From NCBI RefSeq assembly GCF_018599195.1, contig NZ_JAHFVK010000001.1:1178001-1242000 (forward strand): a stretch of DNA of 64,000 nt. Reading direction: 5' to 3'. A program made the position numbers and the translations under genes. This document shows positions 24,587 to 32,515 of the stretch, piece after piece. Source of the stretch: Croceibacterium selenioxidans. Lineage in GTDB: Bacteria > Pseudomonadota > Alphaproteobacteria > Sphingomonadales > Sphingomonadaceae. Positions within the stretch are counted from its first letter, which is position 1; the number at the start of each line of letters is the position of its first letter. The notes below the pieces were generated by a model that saw nothing but the letters and a program-made list of their open reading frames with translations, searched no databases and was not told where the DNA came from.

Positions 24587-24614
24587 CAGACAAGCGATCG
24601 CAAGGAGATTAGAT

Positions 24615-25901
24615 TTGGCGGACACCCAGGCAAAGTTGGCGGTCGGGAACCAGGATTTCGATCTGCCGGTACTGAAGGGCACTACCGGTCCGGACGTGCT
24701 CGATATTCGCAAGCTTTACGGCCAGACCGGGATGTTCACCTATGACCCGGGCTTCACCTCGACTGCCAGCTGCGAAAGTTCGCTGACCTATATCGACGGC
24801 GAAGAGGGCATTCTGCTTCACCGCGGCTATCCGATCGGGCAACTCGCCGAGCATTCGAGCTTCATGGAAGTGTCCTACCTGATGCTCAACGGCGAACTGC
24901 CGAACAGCCAGGAACTCGATGAATTTTCCCGCACGATCACCCGTCACACCATGCTGCACGAGCAGCTGGCCACGTTCTACCGAGGGTTCCGGCGCGACGC
25001 CCACCCGATGGCGATCATGTGCGGCGTGGTTGGCGCTCTGAGCGCCTTCTACCACGACAGCACCGACATCTCGGATCCGCACCATCGCAAGGTCAGCTCG
25101 CACCGCCTGATCGCCAAGATGCCGACGATCGCGGCGATGGCGTACAAGTATTCGGTGGGGCAGCCGTTCCTCTACCCGGACAACTCGCTCAGCTACACCG
25201 CCAACTTCCTGCGCATGACTTTCGGCGTACCGGCAGAGCCCTATGAGGTGCATCCAGCGGTGGAACGCGCGATGGATCGGATCTTCATCCTTCACGCAGA
25301 CCACGAACAGAATGCCTCGACCTCGACAGTGCGCCTGGCCGGTTCATCTGGCGCCAATCCGTTCGCCTGCATCGCGGCGGGCATCGCCTGTCTGTGGGGT
25401 CCGGCGCACGGCGGCGCGAACGAAGCGGCGCTCAACATGCTGCGCGAGATCGGGACGCCTGACCGCATCAAGCACTATATTGAGCGCGCCAAAGACAAGA
25501 ACGACCCATTCCGCCTGATGGGCTTCGGCCACCGCGTCTACAAGAACTACGATCCCCGCGCGACGGTCATGCAAAAGACCGTGCGCGAGGTATTCGAAGC
25601 TTTGAAGGTCACCGATCCGGTGTTCGAAACGGCCCTTCAGCTCGAGGAAATCGCCCTCAACGACGACTATTTCCACGAGAAAAAGCTGTTCCCGAACGTC
25701 GACTTCTATTCGGGCATCATCCTATCGGCGATGGGCTTCCCGACGACGATGTTCACCGCGCTGTTCGCCCTCGCCCGCACCGTGGGCTGGGTAGCGCAGT
25801 GGAATGAGATGATTTCCGACCCGGGCCAGAAGATCGGCCGCCCGCGCCAGCTCTACACTGGCCCGACGGAGCGTGACTACATTCCCATCGAAAAGCGCTG
25901 A
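24615..25901 (+). CDS. gltA: Citrate synthase (type II, hexameric type)
   Basis: Condenses acetyl-CoA and oxaloacetate to citrate. TTG 24615 is the start: AAGGAG stands 8 bases upstream and the product begins with the family sequence [20 protein letters not shown]. 428 residues. The catalytic residues lie in [24 protein letters not shown] and [15 protein letters not shown]. The rare TTG start may hold expression down. It probably shares a transcript with gltX. Confidence 0.95.
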
Positions 25902-25941: not shown

Positions 25942-27342
25942 TCAGTCGGCGGCTATCGGCGTGTCCGCGGGCAAATCGAGCACGAAGCGCGCCCCTTGTC
26001 CGGGCGCGCTTTCGACGCTCAGTTCCCCGCCCATCGCCCGAGCCAGCTTGCGTGAAATGTAGAGGCCAAGACCCGTCCCGCCATCGCCGCTGCGGCCAAG
26101 GCGTTCGAACTTATTGAACACCCGGGCCTGTTGAGCTTCCGCCAAACCTTCTCCCTGGTCTGCCACCACGATGCGCGCGATCTCGCCCTCGGTCTCGACC
26201 CGTAGCCATACCACCGAGCCTTCCGGTGAATAGCGGATCGCGTTGCCGATCAGATTCAGCAGAATCTGCAAGACTCGCCTGAACTCCCCGATCGCCGGTA
26301 CCTTTTCGCCTTTCTGCGGCGCATCGATACGAATGCCGCGCTCGCGCGCGCGCATGCCGAGGATTCCGGCGGCTCTGCGAGCGAGATCGGAGAGATCGAC
26401 ATGATCCGGAGCGGTAGTGAACTGCTCGTCCTCCACCACCTCCAGATCGGTCAGGTCATCGATCAAGGCTAGCAGATGCTCTCCGGCCGAAGTTATGTCG
26501 GCCGCGTAGTTGCTGTATTCTTCGGCGAGCGGACCGGCGAGTTGCGAGCGAATGGTCTCGGCATTGGCGATGATACGGGCGATCGGCTGCCGCAGAACGG
26601 GCGCTATCTCTCCGCCCATCGCCGCACTGAAGGCGGGCGCAGGACCCTCGACGGCGGGCCCCTGGACCGAAGCGAAAGCTTCCTCATCCCGCTCTTCGGC
26701 TACGAAATAGAGTTCGAAACCGGTGCTTCCCGGCTCGGGTGCGCCGAGGGGAATCAGGTGCGCCTTCCAATGGCGCACCGAGCCCGGAATCCGCAGGCGG
26801 GCCCCGTCCAGCAAGCGCCAGTGAAGCGGTTGCTCGTGCGAATTGCCCTCGAGGTCCACAAATTCAGTCCAGGGTCGCCCTAGACCCTCGCGCATTTTTG
26901 CGACGACCGCGCCCAACTCGGGAGACTGGCTTTCGACCGACAGCAAGTCCTGCCGCGGCCCCAAGCGGGCGGAAAGTTCGGCTATCTGACGCGCGATGCC
27001 GTTCCGCCGCTGCGACGCCTCTCGGCCGTCGGAATCCTGCAGCGGAAGGATCTGCCAGTTCGACACGCCGATGACGCAGCCCTCCCCTTCGGGATCCGGC
27101 GAAATCTCCACCCAGGCTGTCACTTGCTCGTGGTCGTCCTGCGCGCGGATCGGCCGTGCAAGTCGCAAGCCATAGAGGCGCGACTTTCGTACCAGCTCCA
27201 GCAAGGCAGGCGTGGCGATGATGCCCGGAAGCTCTCCGCCACTGCGTAGCTGCAAGGTGGCCAAGGGTTCTTCTGCTTCGAGCAACCAGTCCCGCCCGTC
27301 GGTTCTTGCGCGAGCTACGAAAGACGATCGCCGTACCGTCAT
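25942..27342 (-). CDS. Histidine-kinase-like protein lacking the phospho-acceptor His
   Basis: 466 residues, no membrane segment. Residues about 20-220 look like one or two PAS-like sensory domains. The region in place of the H-box reads EIAPVLRQPIARI (245-257): aligned with the usual SHELRTPL, the His position is P248. The ATPase domain looks complete, with LLNLIGNAIRYSP (N-box, 361-373), VVADQGEG (G1), VFNKFERL (F-box) and GTGLGLYIS (G2). It may still bind ATP but cannot phosphorylate itself at the normal site, so a DivL-like or scaffold role is possible. Its ATG is one base after the DUF2336 stop, so the two are coupled. Confidence 0.85.
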   Translation of the reverse strand: MTVRRSSFVARARTDGRDWLLEAEEPLATLQLRSGGELPGIIATPALLELVRKSRLYGLRLARPIRAQDDHEQVTAWVEISPDPEGEGCVIGVSNWQILPLQDSDGREASQRRNGIARQIAELSARLGPRQDLLSVESQSPELGAVVAKMREGLGRPWTEFVDLEGNSHEQPLHWRLLDGARLRIPGSVRHWKAHLIPLGAPEPGSTGFELYFVAEERDEEAFASVQGPAVEGPAPAFSAAMGGEIAPVLRQPIARIIANAETIRSQLAGPLAEEYSNYAADITSAGEHLLALIDDLTDLEVVEDEQFTTAPDHVDLSDLARRAAGILGMRARERGIRIDAPQKGEKVPAIGEFRRVLQILLNLIGNAIRYSPEGSVVWLRVETEGEIARIVVADQGEGLAEAQQARVFNKFERLGRSGDGGTGLGLYISRKLARAMGGELSVESAPGQGARFVLDLPADTPIAAD

Positions 27343-27343
27343 C

Positions 27344-28282
27344 TCAGAAAGCCGCGCTGGCCCTGGGTGCCGAAAGCAGAAGAGCAGCGATCTCGGCAGG
27401 CATGGTTTCTACGCCCGCCGGCATGGCCGCCTCAGGGTGCAATGACAGCAGCTGGATGCGAACTTCCCGAGCCCCGAGCCCCGCAACGCGCAAGGCGAGG
27501 CTAAGACGGGCAGGCTGCCTGTCGACCATGGAAACGACCGCCAGACTGCGATCCTGCTCCGAGCGATAGGCCAGAGCTGTGGCAAAGATCGCTACGCCGG
27601 CGTGGTCCACGTCCAGCGCTCGATCTGCCTGCTCCCCCAGCCCCACAAGGAGGCGCGTCAGCAGACTGAGGCGAGCGGCCCCTTCGTCGTAAGCTGCGCG
27701 GAGCTTTCGTTCACCGTCTCCAGCGACGTCGGGATCGACCCGACCCAACATGAGCGCCCGGTGAAACAGATCGCCGGGCAATTCTCCGATTGGCAGCTCC
27801 ATCCGCCGATAGTGCTGCAGGAAGCGAGCTTGCGCGGCGAGCACGGCCATGGCCAGCGCCGCTTTCTCCGGGTTGCCGGAGGCCATAAGGTCCTGAATTA
27901 GCGCGGGAGTAACCGGATCCAGACCTATTCGGAACTGCAGGCGTTCGGCCAATTGGGCTTCGAGAACCAGAGTATGGATGTGCGCCAGGAACGCCGGGTC
28001 TTCCACGAGCGCCAAGGCCAGGGTGTCCTGCCGGGCAGCGTCATGCATGGGTTCAAGCGCCTCATCTTGCTCAGCCGCCAGGACCTGCCCGGCGACATCG
28101 AGCGACATTCCCCGGATTCGCGCGACGACTTCGTCACTGAAAAGATCTTGTCCCTCGATGTGCAGCAGATTCAACAACACCGATCGCGCCCGCACGAGCG
28201 TCGCATCGCCGCGCACGAGTTCGTCACGCAACGCGTGCTGGACCGAGTCATCGGCATGCCCTGCGATGGGAGCATCGTTCAT
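27344..28282 (-). CDS. DUF2336 protein
   Basis: 312 residues, cytosolic, almost entirely helical, with leucine- and alanine-rich repeats. It matches the pattern of DUF2336, an alphaproteobacterial family of unknown function (for example VRARSVLLNLLHIEGQDLFS, DEALEPMHDAARQDTLALA and LPGDLFHRALMLGRVD). The helical repeats suggest a protein-binding scaffold. It is transcribed before, and coupled with, the His-less kinase gene, so the two proteins may form a complex. Confidence 0.75.
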   Translation of the reverse strand: MNDAPIAGHADDSVQHALRDELVRGDATLVRARSVLLNLLHIEGQDLFSDEVVARIRGMSLDVAGQVLAAEQDEALEPMHDAARQDTLALALVEDPAFLAHIHTLVLEAQLAERLQFRIGLDPVTPALIQDLMASGNPEKAALAMAVLAAQARFLQHYRRMELPIGELPGDLFHRALMLGRVDPDVAGDGERKLRAAYDEGAARLSLLTRLLVGLGEQADRALDVDHAGVAIFATALAYRSEQDRSLAVVSMVDRQPARLSLALRVAGLGAREVRIQLLSLHPEAAMPAGVETMPAEIAALLLSAPRASAAF

Positions 28283-28316
28283 GGGCTCGCCTTATCCGCA
28301 TAGGGTTAAGCCCGCG

Positions 28317-29483
28317 TTATCCGTGCACTGCGCCCAAACGCGCGGTTTTCAGTGCAATCACCGTCAATCCCGCCACCATGATGGCCGCCTCGGCATAGCC
28401 AAACGCTGCGGCAATCGCGAAAACCCCCGCCAAGAGCGCGCGATCGCCCATCGCTTGGACAATTCCCGGCGTCCCCTCGGGAGGTCGCAAATAGAGCGAC
28501 GCCAGAAGTACCACCGGGGGAAACAGGCGATGCAGCCAGCTCCCATCGATGGCGAGCACCGAACAGACCAGAAGGGCCGCGTCGACGAAGGCAGGAAGGA
28601 ACAGGCTTGCCCGCCGCTGCGGAGGACGGAAGCGGCCGTCGAGCAGGGGCAGCAGTCCCAACGCCAACTGGATGACCAGCGCTCCGAGAACCACGAGTGC
28701 GAGCCCGGCCGATGAGAAGCCGAACCAGCTTGCGGCCGCGGCCCCGAAAAGAAGCGCCAAAGCGCCTGCGGAAAGGCTCGTAAACGACTGTTTTCGCGCC
28801 AGAAACCAGGGAGCCAGAGGGCGAAGTACCTTGCCAGCAAGGAGGGCCGACAAGCCTTGCGACACGCTGGCCTTAAGCCGCCGGTCCAACCAAGCCTGTC
28901 CTACCGTCTCGGTGTCACCGCCATCTCCCACCATCACCCAGGACCCATCGGTAAGTGCCTGATCTGAAAGCTTGGCATCTGGCACCCGTGCCTGAAGGGC
29001 CACTCGCAAGAGTGCCGAGGTCGCCTCGACGTCAGCGGGCAATTCGGCCAGTCGTTCGACCAATCCCCCCGGAACGACCGCGGCTCCTGCCCAGGCGCGT
29101 TCCAGATCGATCCGCTCGAACCCAGCCGGAACGCCGGAAGATGCGGGCAGAACAAGCACGACGTTGCTTTTGGCCAAGGCCGGCAACGCGGCCCGCTCGT
29201 CAGGCAACAGTCCAGGTGCGATGACCATCAGCTCATCGGCCGCTCGAATTGTGCCGAGCAGCCCATGACTGTTGCCGACCGCCAGAAACTGGGCGCCAGC
29301 GTCTTCCGCGGCGTGGCGAAGCGAGATCACGTCCGGCAGGCTGCCGAGCGCGATTATTCGCTCACAGCCGGCGGCAAGCGCAAACTCGAGCTGACGCTCG
29401 GCCACGGATTTGCCGGCAACATGCAAGGCAGAACCGCCCCGGTCGCGCGGCTGTCCGGTAATTGAAATCAGGGCAGCGCGCAC
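28317..29483 (-). CDS. Membrane protein with a nucleotidyltransferase-like N-terminal domain
   Basis: 388 residues from GTG 29483, which has GGAGGTGGAGG directly before it. Residues 1-150 resemble a sugar-nucleotidyltransferase fold (LISITGQPRDRGGSALHVAGKSVAERQLEFALAAG is reminiscent of the GGxGTRL-P-K-V region), but the canonical glycine-rich loop is not conserved. The C-terminal half has about six hydrophobic helices (for example SLSAGALALLFGAAAASWFG). It could be a degenerate bifunctional enzyme of the CDP-alcohol type; I do not recognise the exact family. It lies between the HPt-like and DUF2336 genes in one minus-strand run. Confidence 0.6.
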   Translation of the reverse strand: MRAALISITGQPRDRGGSALHVAGKSVAERQLEFALAAGCERIIALGSLPDVISLRHAAEDAGAQFLAVGNSHGLLGTIRAADELMVIAPGLLPDERAALPALAKSNVVLVLPASSGVPAGFERIDLERAWAGAAVVPGGLVERLAELPADVEATSALLRVALQARVPDAKLSDQALTDGSWVMVGDGGDTETVGQAWLDRRLKASVSQGLSALLAGKVLRPLAPWFLARKQSFTSLSAGALALLFGAAAASWFGFSSAGLALVVLGALVIQLALGLLPLLDGRFRPPQRRASLFLPAFVDAALLVCSVLAIDGSWLHRLFPPVVLLASLYLRPPEGTPGIVQAMGDRALLAGVFAIAAAFGYAEAAIMVAGLTVIALKTARLGAVHG

Positions 29484-29552
29484 CCTCCACCTCCCCGCTA
29501 CAGGCCCTCCCGACCTACGCGGTCGCCACGAGCCTGCCAAGCGAGGAGAATA

Positions 29553-29864
29553 TCAGCTAAAGCGTTCGGCGGCGAAGTGGTTGTATAGCGCGCTGAGCTT
29601 GCGAACGGCGGCCGGGTCGCCCGGTGCACCACTGAGCGCTTCCTCGGCAAGGTCCACCAGCTCCGACACATGGAAACTGGTGCCGAGCCCTTTGATCCGC
29701 ATGGCGGCGACTTCCCAGTTCCCGTCGCAACGTGAACGGCCGAGCAAATCGATCTGCTGCCCAAGGCTTTCGAAGAACGCATTTCGCAGCTCCTCACGCA
29801 AGGCAAGGTCGTCGCCGGCGGCGGCCGCCAGGTTCGAGTCAAAATCTCCGGATGCGTAAGCCAT
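29553..29864 (-). CDS. HPt-like four-helix protein without the phospho-acceptor His
   Basis: 103 residues from ATG 29864, with AGGA upstream. Length and pattern match a histidine phosphotransfer domain: the central helix reads WEVAAMRIKGLGTSFHVSEL, where the HPt consensus is A-H-x-L-K-G. The His position holds M55, while K58-G59 are kept. It is either a non-phosphorylated HPt relative acting as a binding module or a diverged small helical protein. It diverges from the TipN-like gene with 68 bases between the starts. Confidence 0.6.
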   Translation of the reverse strand: MAYASGDFDSNLAAAAGDDLALREELRNAFFESLGQQIDLLGRSRCDGNWEVAAMRIKGLGTSFHVSELVDLAEEALSGAPGDPAAVRKLSALYNHFAAERFS

Positions 29865-29887
29865 CTGTCCTACATGGTGGAAGATAG

Positions 29888-29902
29888 TTAAGGCGGGGTT
29901 TA
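29888..29902. promoter_or_regulatory. Candidate CtrA-binding site
   Basis: TTAA-GGCGGGG-TTTA differs by one base from the CtrA consensus TTAA-N7-TTAA. It sits in the 68-base divergent gap between the HPt-like gene and the coiled-coil gene, a suitable place to control both. A single near-match can arise by chance. Confidence 0.35.
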
Positions 29903-29932
29903 TCACTTAGGGCACTGTGGTAGTTTACCAAA

Positions 29933-32515
29933 ATGGCAAGCAGGAAGAACCTCGTGGCGTTCGGCCCGGAAACCCAACTCGAGAACGCGGCGGAAGCGGC
30001 ACAAATCGCGCAGCCCGCGGAGGATCCTCCCGCCGACGATATTGCCGAGGCGTTTGACGAGCAGTGGGTTGAAGATGAACAGCCCCGGCATTTCGACCGC
30101 CTGGGCCGGCTACTCCCTGCCGTTGCCGGCCTTGCCGTCGTGGGCTGGACCGCCTTCTTTGGTTGGGTTCATCGCGAGGCGCTGCTGACCGGCGCGAGCC
30201 CGGCGCAGTGGGCCGACTGGATCGTCGATTGGTCGGTTCCGGTGTTGCTTGTCATCGGGGTTTGGCTCCTGGCCATGCGCAACAGCCGGCGTGAGGCCGT
30301 TCGCTTTGGCCAAGCCGCGCAGGCCTTGTCGCAGGAATCTGCGTTGCTCGAACGCCGCCTCGTCACCGTCAATCGGGAACTCAGCCTGGCGCGTGATTTC
30401 ATCGCCGCCCAGTCGCGGGATCTCGAGTCCCTTGGCCGCGTGGCAAGTGATCGCCTGTCCCAGAATGCCGACCGGCTTCAAACGCTGATCCAGGACAATG
30501 GCGCGCAGGTCGAAGCGATCGGCCGGGTGAGCACTACGGCGTTGGAGAATATGGACCGTCTGCGCGACGATCTGCCGGTCATCTCCAACTCCGCCCGAGA
30601 CGTTGCCAGCCAGATCGGCCATGCCGGTGGGGTAGCGAAGGAACAACTCGACGAGCTGGTCGCCGGCTTCAACCGTCTGAACGAATTCGGTGAGGCGAGC
30701 AGCCGCCAGGTCTCGAACTTGCGCGGGAAGGTGGACGAAGCGCTGCAGGCCTTTACGGCCCAGGCGGCCCAGCTCGACGAGATTGCGACGAACCGCTTCG
30801 CCATCCTGGCCGAGCGCAGCGCAGCCTTCCGCGGCGAGCTGGACAGCCGCGAGGTCGAAGCATTCGCCGCGATCCGCCGTCGTGCCGATACTCTACGCGA
30901 TGAGCTGCAAGCCCGTCGCGACGACTACGACTTGGCGGAAGACGCGACCCTGACCGCCTTGCGCGAACGGATGAACTTGTTGCGAGACGAAGGCGCTCGT
31001 GTCGCGGAATCCTTGCGCAATGGCGAAGCTGAGGCCGCCTCCGCCTGGTCGAACGCCGTGTCCGAACTCGAGCAACGCATGATCGAGGCGATCCAGCGCG
31101 TGCGCGAGGTCGATACCAAGGCGATGGAAAATGCCCAGAGCCGCCTCGCGGCACTCAGCGAGGAGGCCGAGCGGATCGATGCCACGATCGTGGATCGAGT
31201 TCAGGCTTTCCAACAGCATCTCGAACAACGTCACGCCGAAGCATCGGCGCGCGAGGCGGCGGCTCTGGCATCGATGCAGGAACGCCTGGCAGCTTTCGAC
31301 ATGCAGATCTCAGAGCGGCAGGAAGAACACCTTGCCCATGTCGCGGGACTGGCAGAGCGTGGCGACGCGCTGGCAGAGCGCCTCGCGGGTCTGAGTGCCG
31401 AAATGGAGCGGCTCGAACGCCAAGGCCGCTTTACCCAAGATGGCTTGAGCGAGGCCGCCGCCGGATTGGTGGAACGACTGGTCGAAAGCCAGAGCCTGAT
31501 CGCGAGCAGCGGGAAGGAGCTGATCCGCCTGACCGACGACAGTGTTCGCTTGCTCGAATTGATCCGTTCGAGTGCCGAACATAGTGGCGAAAAACTCCCA
31601 CAGTCGCTCGGCGAGGCCGAACGGCGACTGCAGGCGTTCGAGAAGCAGGCTACGGCGCTGACGACACTGATCAACGAAGCCGGTGACAAGGGTGCCGCGC
31701 TGGTGGACCACGTGGCGACTGCCCAGGAACAGGGGTCGGCCACCCTGGTTCAGTTGTCGACCCTCGAATCTCGCCTGTCCGACCTCGCTGGAGCAACCGA
31801 AAGCCTCGCCGACCACGCGCGGGAAGAACTGGTGGCGGCGATCGCTGCGCTGGAGCAAGCGACGGGCGGTGTGATTGCCAACCTGCAAGGTCAGCACTCC
31901 GAGGCCATTCGCGCTCTGGCTGAGCGCATTGGCAGCGAAAGTAGCGCGGCCATCGACGAGGCCCTGCGCGCCCACGCGTCAGAGGCGATCGAAGAGCTGC
32001 AAGCCGCGGCCAGGCAAGCAAGCGAATCCGGTCGGGCCACGACGGTTCAGCTTCGCGATCAGCTCGCGGCCGTCAACGAACTCGCCGGCAATCTCGAGCG
32101 CCGGGTCGCTCATGCCCGTCAGCGTGCCGAAGAGCAGATCGATAACGACTTCGCCCGACGCATGGCGCTGATCACCGAGAGCCTGAATTCGAGCGCAATC
32201 GACATAACCAAGTCGCTCGACACCGATGTCACCGATACGGCCTGGGCGAGCTATCTGCGCGGCGACCGCGGGATCTTTACCCGCCGCGCGGTCCGCCTGC
32301 TCAATACTCAGGAAGTCCGCGCCATCGCGGACATCTATCAGGAAGACGGGGACTTCCGCGAAACGGTCAATCGCTACATCCACGACTTCGAAGCCATGTT
32401 GCGCAACGTGCTCTCTACGCGCGACGGACACGCCATGGCGGTCACCCTGCTGTCATCAGACATGGGCAAGCTCTACGTGGCCTTGGCCCAGGCGATCGAA
32501 CGCTTGAGGACCTGA
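29933..32515 (+). CDS. Two-TM, long coiled-coil protein (TipN-like polarity factor candidate)
   Basis: 860 residues. An acidic N-terminus is followed by two membrane helices (about 60-79 and 99-115) and then some 600 residues of charged heptad-rich coiled coil. The C-terminal 100 residues form a more compact conserved region (YLRGDRGIFTRRAVRLLN to VNRYIHDFEAMLRNVL). Size and layout match Caulobacter TipN, a new-pole marker, but the identity is inferred from architecture and not from a search. Other coiled-coil membrane proteins are possible. The whole product would face the cytosol apart from the short loop between the helices. Confidence 0.7.
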   Translation: MASRKNLVAFGPETQLENAAEAAQIAQPAEDPPADDIAEAFDEQWVEDEQPRHFDRLGRLLPAVAGLAVVGWTAFFGWVHREALLTGASPAQWADWIVDWSVPVLLVIGVWLLAMRNSRREAVRFGQAAQALSQESALLERRLVTVNRELSLARDFIAAQSRDLESLGRVASDRLSQNADRLQTLIQDNGAQVEAIGRVSTTALENMDRLRDDLPVISNSARDVASQIGHAGGVAKEQLDELVAGFNRLNEFGEASSRQVSNLRGKVDEALQAFTAQAAQLDEIATNRFAILAERSAAFRGELDSREVEAFAAIRRRADTLRDELQARRDDYDLAEDATLTALRERMNLLRDEGARVAESLRNGEAEAASAWSNAVSELEQRMIEAIQRVREVDTKAMENAQSRLAALSEEAERIDATIVDRVQAFQQHLEQRHAEASAREAAALASMQERLAAFDMQISERQEEHLAHVAGLAERGDALAERLAGLSAEMERLERQGRFTQDGLSEAAAGLVERLVESQSLIASSGKELIRLTDDSVRLLELIRSSAEHSGEKLPQSLGEAERRLQAFEKQATALTTLINEAGDKGAALVDHVATAQEQGSATLVQLSTLESRLSDLAGATESLADHAREELVAAIAALEQATGGVIANLQGQHSEAIRALAERIGSESSAAIDEALRAHASEAIEELQAAARQASESGRATTVQLRDQLAAVNELAGNLERRVAHARQRAEEQIDNDFARRMALITESLNSSAIDITKSLDTDVTDTAWASYLRGDRGIFTRRAVRLLNTQEVRAIADIYQEDGDFRETVNRYIHDFEAMLRNVLSTRDGHAMAVTLLSSDMGKLYVALAQAIERLRT

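Follow-up and report, generated by a model that had tools for sequence, protein, structure and literature searches.

Five intact genes are present in the block from 25942 to 32515 of the window (the whole 64-kb stretch of DNA that was analysed). They were confirmed by an open reading frame check, in which the start codons were refined. As shown in Table 1, four genes are encoded on the minus strand and form an operon in the order HPt-like protein, nucleotidyltransferase/CDP-alcohol phosphotransferase-like membrane protein, DUF2336-like protein and kinase-like protein. The gaps in this operon are about 69 nt (HPt/membrane protein), 34 nt (membrane protein/DUF2336-like) and 1 nt (DUF2336-like/kinase), and the fifth gene, which encodes a coiled-coil protein, is divergent from the HPt gene with 68 nt between them. 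Thus, the five reading frames and the tight packing described in a first-pass annotation of this DNA are both present. The start of the membrane protein was picked by eye; its reading frame itself opens at TTG 29540. The left flank contains gltX and gltA (citrate synthase), and the right flank contains DUF1467, rnj (RNase J), coaX and birA; except for DUF1467, these names were given by reading of the sequences. A sigma-70 scan did not find a promoter. A PopZ-family protein (DUF2497) is encoded in the same genome.

Table 1 Features of the five-gene locus, with positions in the window
Feature	Position	Strand	Length	Remark
Predicted pseudo histidine kinase	25942-27342	-	466 aa	
All-helical protein, putative remote DUF2336 relative	27344-28282	-	312 aa	
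Membrane protein, predicted pseudo IPCT-DIPPS	28317 to ~29483	-		GTG start with GGAGG upstream
Predicted pseudo-HPt protein	29553-29864	-		ATG start
CtrA-like site, TTAA-N7-TTTA	29888-29902	+		in divergent intergenic region
TipN-like coiled-coil scaffold candidate	29933-32515	+	860 aa	

The coiled-coil protein possesses two transmembrane helices by hydropathy (residues ~61-79 and ~97-115), followed by a long coiled coil, and its last 120 residues (~740-860) form a conserved C-terminal domain. The protein was found in 57 of 60 relatives and, at E 0.001, in 143 of 241 genomes of the class, where weak matches may be coiled-coil noise. Among the genomes, Caulobacteraceae (family f59) were recognised by the DivJ score. 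A homologue is encoded in 36 of the 40 Caulobacteraceae, mostly as a single copy of ~830-950 aa. When the profile of the C-terminal domain of the window family was compared with that of the Caulobacteraceae homologue, the two matched with 97.8% probability (E 9e-13) and the match reached the last residues. We provisionally take the Caulobacteraceae protein as TipN, the new-pole marker of C. crescentus, whose functions have been described (PMC10127582, PMC5347347). The window protein shares with TipN the two N-terminal transmembrane helices, the long coiled coil and a similar length, and its C-terminal domain matches the Caulobacteraceae protein, itself taken as TipN. These results support the proposal in the first-pass annotation that the protein is TipN-like. 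In contrast to tipN, the window gene is linked to an HPt gene and three further genes, and its sequence is divergent overall. No TipN or ShpA model was matched in NCBIfam. In three loci from other orders (L128, L129 and L150), the TipN-like protein is 1500-2000 aa, and two of these loci (L129 and L150) have a histidine kinase gene just upstream on the same strand. In two Caulobacteraceae loci (L239 and L273), a dipeptide-epimerase-like gene (family assigned by eye) lies directly downstream of the TipN-like gene.

The HPt-like protein belongs to a family in which 18 of 33 members match Pfam Hpt (PF01627). The closest solved relative is PDB 2ooc, which is listed as a histidine phosphotransferase (family profile, 7.9e-10) and which we take to be C. 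crescentus ShpA; the Caulobacteraceae HPt member matches 2ooc at 2e-37. HPt members outside Sphingomonadaceae possess the canonical motif with His (A-H-K-L-K-G and similar). In the window protein the motif is A-M-R-I-K-G, in which the phospho-acceptor His is replaced by Met. None of the 21 degenerate members, the window protein among them, retains the His; the position is occupied by Met, Leu, Gln, Trp, Gly, Ala or Glu. The profiles of the degenerate and canonical groups match each other at 96.5% (E 8e-10). Because the window protein fits the HPt profile but has lost the phospho-acceptor His, it is, judged from its sequence, HPt-derived and not a phosphotransfer protein. The earlier description as HPt-like is therefore borne out by the profiles, with the loss of the His as an addition. 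Several residues, among them R43, R45, W50, A80-P81 and P84, are invariant in the degenerate group and particular to it, and these point to a new binding surface. No other HPt was found in the same genome with the profile of this HPt family. ShpA passes phosphate from ShkA to TacA, and this phosphorelay acts in G1/S timing and on stalk genes (PMC7010744). The window HPt is in the 2ooc family and resembles this system in that respect; however, it does not possess the phospho-His, it adjoins a TipN-like gene, and neither a receiver nor a TacA gene is present at the locus.

The kinase-like protein consists of a PAS-like N-terminus, HisKA (Pfam 5e-7) and HATPase_c (Pfam 1e-26). Its H-box is IAPVLRQPIA, in which the phospho-acceptor His is replaced by Pro. 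Of 21 aligned kinases, 20 have lost the His: the window protein and 17 relatives carry Pro, and two others carry Ala or Asn. Only the L054 kinase keeps the His. In contrast, the N, G1, F and G2 boxes are invariant in this alignment and HATPase_c is intact. The protein had been called a pseudokinase, and the replaced His beside invariant ATP-binding boxes agrees with this name. In the basal relative G012 (L272), a related PAS kinase possesses a normal SHELRTPL motif and adjoins a true DUF2336 gene; therefore, the active form is visible in relatives. DivL is a kinase-fold regulator of CckA in which Tyr replaces the His. The window kinase resembles DivL in the kinase fold, PAS, the intact ATP-binding domain and the replaced His. 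However, it has Pro instead of Tyr, is shorter and has no predicted transmembrane helix, and the homology seen is that of the common kinase core. In all 20 genomes that carry both genes, the kinase His and the HPt His are both lost. This joint loss argues that the two proteins belong, or once belonged, to a single pathway, although it may reflect only one or two events because the genomes share ancestry. The presence of the kinase and that of the HPt at the locus are associated (Fisher p 0.001, genomes treated without phylogenetic correction).

The membrane protein consists of a nucleotidyltransferase-like head and a CDP-alcohol phosphotransferase-like membrane domain. In its AlphaFold2 model (pLDDT 89.4), the best PDB match over the whole length is IPCT-DIPPS 4mnd (Foldseek E 5e-9; Z 23.4, 354 aligned residues, rmsd 5.2), and AF2299 (4o6m) also gives a whole-length two-domain match (Z 19.0). 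The modelled fold is therefore shared with both proteins, but the window protein possesses neither the D..DG..AR catalytic motif nor the nucleotidyltransferase glycine loop. The D..DG..AR motif is also absent from the other 24 homologues. Thus, the nucleotidyltransferase-like head suggested by the first-pass annotation was confirmed, and the assignment can be sharpened to a predicted dead IPCT-DIPPS-like protein. Two homologues encoded at this locus in other genera (L055 and L058) retain the D..DG..AR motif and are similar to CDP-alcohol phosphotransferases. In these two loci, an intact CDP-alcohol phosphotransferase/nucleotidyltransferase-like fusion (L055:4669-6942; L058:4219-6554) adjoins the coiled-coil gene, a second, divergent nucleotidyltransferase-like gene is present, and there is no kinase or HPt gene. 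Perhaps this arrangement represents the functional ancestor of a pathway for inositol-type head groups.

The helical protein had been assigned to DUF2336 (PF10098), and this putative relation is drawn through intermediate proteins. The window protein has no Pfam match and does not reach DUF2336, and direct comparison of its family profile with DUF2336 gave a weak result (hhalign probability 9%). However, in three deep branches (L050, L052 and L054) the proteins at the same operon place match DUF2336. The structural model is confident (pLDDT 88.7) and all-helical, and no PDB structure was matched by Foldseek at E 0.001. Thus, deep branches carry recognisable DUF2336 proteins at this position of the operon, whereas the window protein is below Pfam detection and has a helical fold without a PDB match. 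No DUF2336 protein was found by Pfam in the same genome. In many genomes outside Sphingomonadaceae, a true DUF2336 gene is convergent with the coiled-coil gene. This arrangement was observed in L068, L070-L076, L078, L057, L121 and L126, a set that reaches beyond the order; many of those genomes encode four to nine DUF2336 copies. It is possible that DUF2336 proteins are themselves partners of TipN.

A near CtrA site had been noted in the divergent region, and the candidate at 29888-29902 is indeed one mismatch from TTAA-N7-TTAA. In the window alone, two such sites are present in 64 kb and 1.94 are expected by chance, so a judgement from the window alone was rejected. Across relatives, the site is found in 15 of 23 Sphingomonadaceae loci, compared with 0.74 expected from composition-matched shuffles, and in most loci the distance from the site to the HPt start downstream is ~23-27 nt. 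The divergent intergenic regions contain 14 sites in 3.5 kb, versus 20 in 303 kb elsewhere in the loci (4.0 versus 0.07 per kb); the shuffle is the fairer control, because the remainder is largely coding sequence with a lower AT content. The site is meaningful because it is conserved across relatives, not from the count in the window. Its conservation gives indirect support to a cell-cycle link of the locus.

Conserved gene order had been suggested as a check on the grouping of these genes, and we compared 48 loci in the order Sphingomonadales and 40 from the rest of the class. All five genes are found together in 18 of 29 sampled Sphingomonadaceae loci (window excluded), and about one third of sampled Sphingomonadaceae do not possess part of the set. 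Within this family, the flanking genes gltX-gltA, DUF1467, rnj, coaX and birA show roughly the same degree of conservation as the five genes. Therefore, the linkage of the four operon genes is in part a background effect, gene order at the family level is weak evidence by itself, and we rejected it as proof of function. The check succeeded for the HPt/coiled-coil pair: of the 19 Sphingomonadales loci that lie outside Sphingomonadaceae, 10 keep it in divergent orientation, as do 13 of the 40 loci taken from other alphaproteobacterial orders. Named relatives in the class families examined include Rhizomicrobium, Parvibaculum and Tepidicaulis. In Caulobacteraceae, the HPt gene is mostly apart from the TipN-like gene.

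These distributions bear on an alternative explanation, in which the TipN-like/HPt pair is real and ancient and the kinase, DUF2336-like and IPCT-DIPPS-like genes adjoin it through genome architecture and have separate functions, such as envelope lipid sensing or stress signalling. The conservation of the gltX-gltA and rnj-coaX-birA flanks is in line with this explanation. So are the absence of the kinase and DUF2336-like genes from the locus in L037, L047, L051, L053, L055 and L058, and the fact that no part of the set other than the HPt/coiled-coil pair is kept across orders. However, the operon genes are on one strand with spacing near zero, L049 retains the five genes amid other flanks, and the kinase and HPt co-occur and lost their His together. 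Moreover, in other families a DUF2336 gene also adjoins the coiled-coil gene, at the opposite side. We regard separate functions as a rather unlikely explanation.

A second alternative is that the kinase is alive. Its ATP-binding domain would phosphorylate a His-bearing partner kinase in trans in a heterodimer, and the HPt-like protein would compete with a true HPt for receivers. The invariance of all ATP-binding boxes is more than a pure scaffold would need and is consistent with this idea. However, the locus contains no gene for a partner kinase, and, as described above, the profile of this HPt family found no other HPt in the genome; we consider a live kinase improbable. The dN/dS values of all five genes are 0.03-0.13 against the two closest species (0.03 for the kinase) and 0.12-0.35 against a third species, and on these values all five genes are under purifying selection. 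Although the proteins come from enzyme and signalling families with lost residues and are patchily retained at the edges of Sphingomonadaceae, a decaying relic losing its functions one by one is largely refuted by these ratios well below 1, the frames open throughout and the invariant ATPase boxes and new HPt residues, and is very improbable.

We tentatively propose, at a little under even probability, that the five genes are the Sphingomonadaceae version of a CtrA-linked polarity locus, in which a phosphorelay has turned into a pseudo-phosphorelay with a TipN-type scaffold and four partners. The plus-strand TipN-type membrane coiled-coil protein would, by its family, mark a cell pole. The divergent operon would make the four partner proteins, probably under the same CtrA-type regulator via the shared site. 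Two of them would be phosphorelay remnants, namely a PAS kinase that is predicted to bind ATP but does not possess the His, and a ShpA-family HPt without the phosphate-carrying His. The IPCT-DIPPS-fold protein without the catalytic motif would act as a membrane anchor or ligand sensor, and the helical DUF2336-like protein would be an adaptor. The dead kinase and HPt would bind their targets, either receiver domains or further kinases, and so bring them together at the TipN-like scaffold. DivL in Caulobacter works by binding in this manner. In Sphingomonadaceae, the kinase, DUF2336-like and IPCT-DIPPS-like genes would have been added to the ancient TipN-type/HPt pair. Judging from the lost motifs, chemistry appears to have gone from at least three of the four operon proteins, which are still under selection, and regulation at the pole would be binding-based. 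We infer the polar location, the mutual binding and the cell-cycle role of the five products. It is possible, but doubtful, that the locus is a hub of former enzymes, in which a TipN-type scaffold is combined with a kinase and an HPt that jointly lost phosphotransfer and with a dead lipid-head-group enzyme, and in which binding is gated by ATP or a ligand.

In the literature searched, we found no description of the five-gene combination, and nothing on DUF2336, on TipN with HPt or on TipN in Sphingomonadales. In several alphaproteobacterial orders, a ShpA-family HPt and a TipN-type scaffold occur as genomic partners, and we found no paper linking them. Their pairing suggests a tie between timing of the ShkA-ShpA-TacA type and pole marking. 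The Sphingomonadaceae would offer a natural case of the change from a phosphorelay to a pseudo-phosphorelay, in which the kinase and the HPt lost the His together and are still selected. Living relatives with active kinase and HPt forms allow comparison with the pseudo-phosphorelay. As a minor observation, the citrate synthase gene (24600-25901 in the window) directly flanks the five-gene set in most Sphingomonadaceae. In Caulobacter, loss of the citrate synthase CitA corrects the defects of a tipN cpdR double mutant (PMC7083601). This correspondence is possibly a coincidence.
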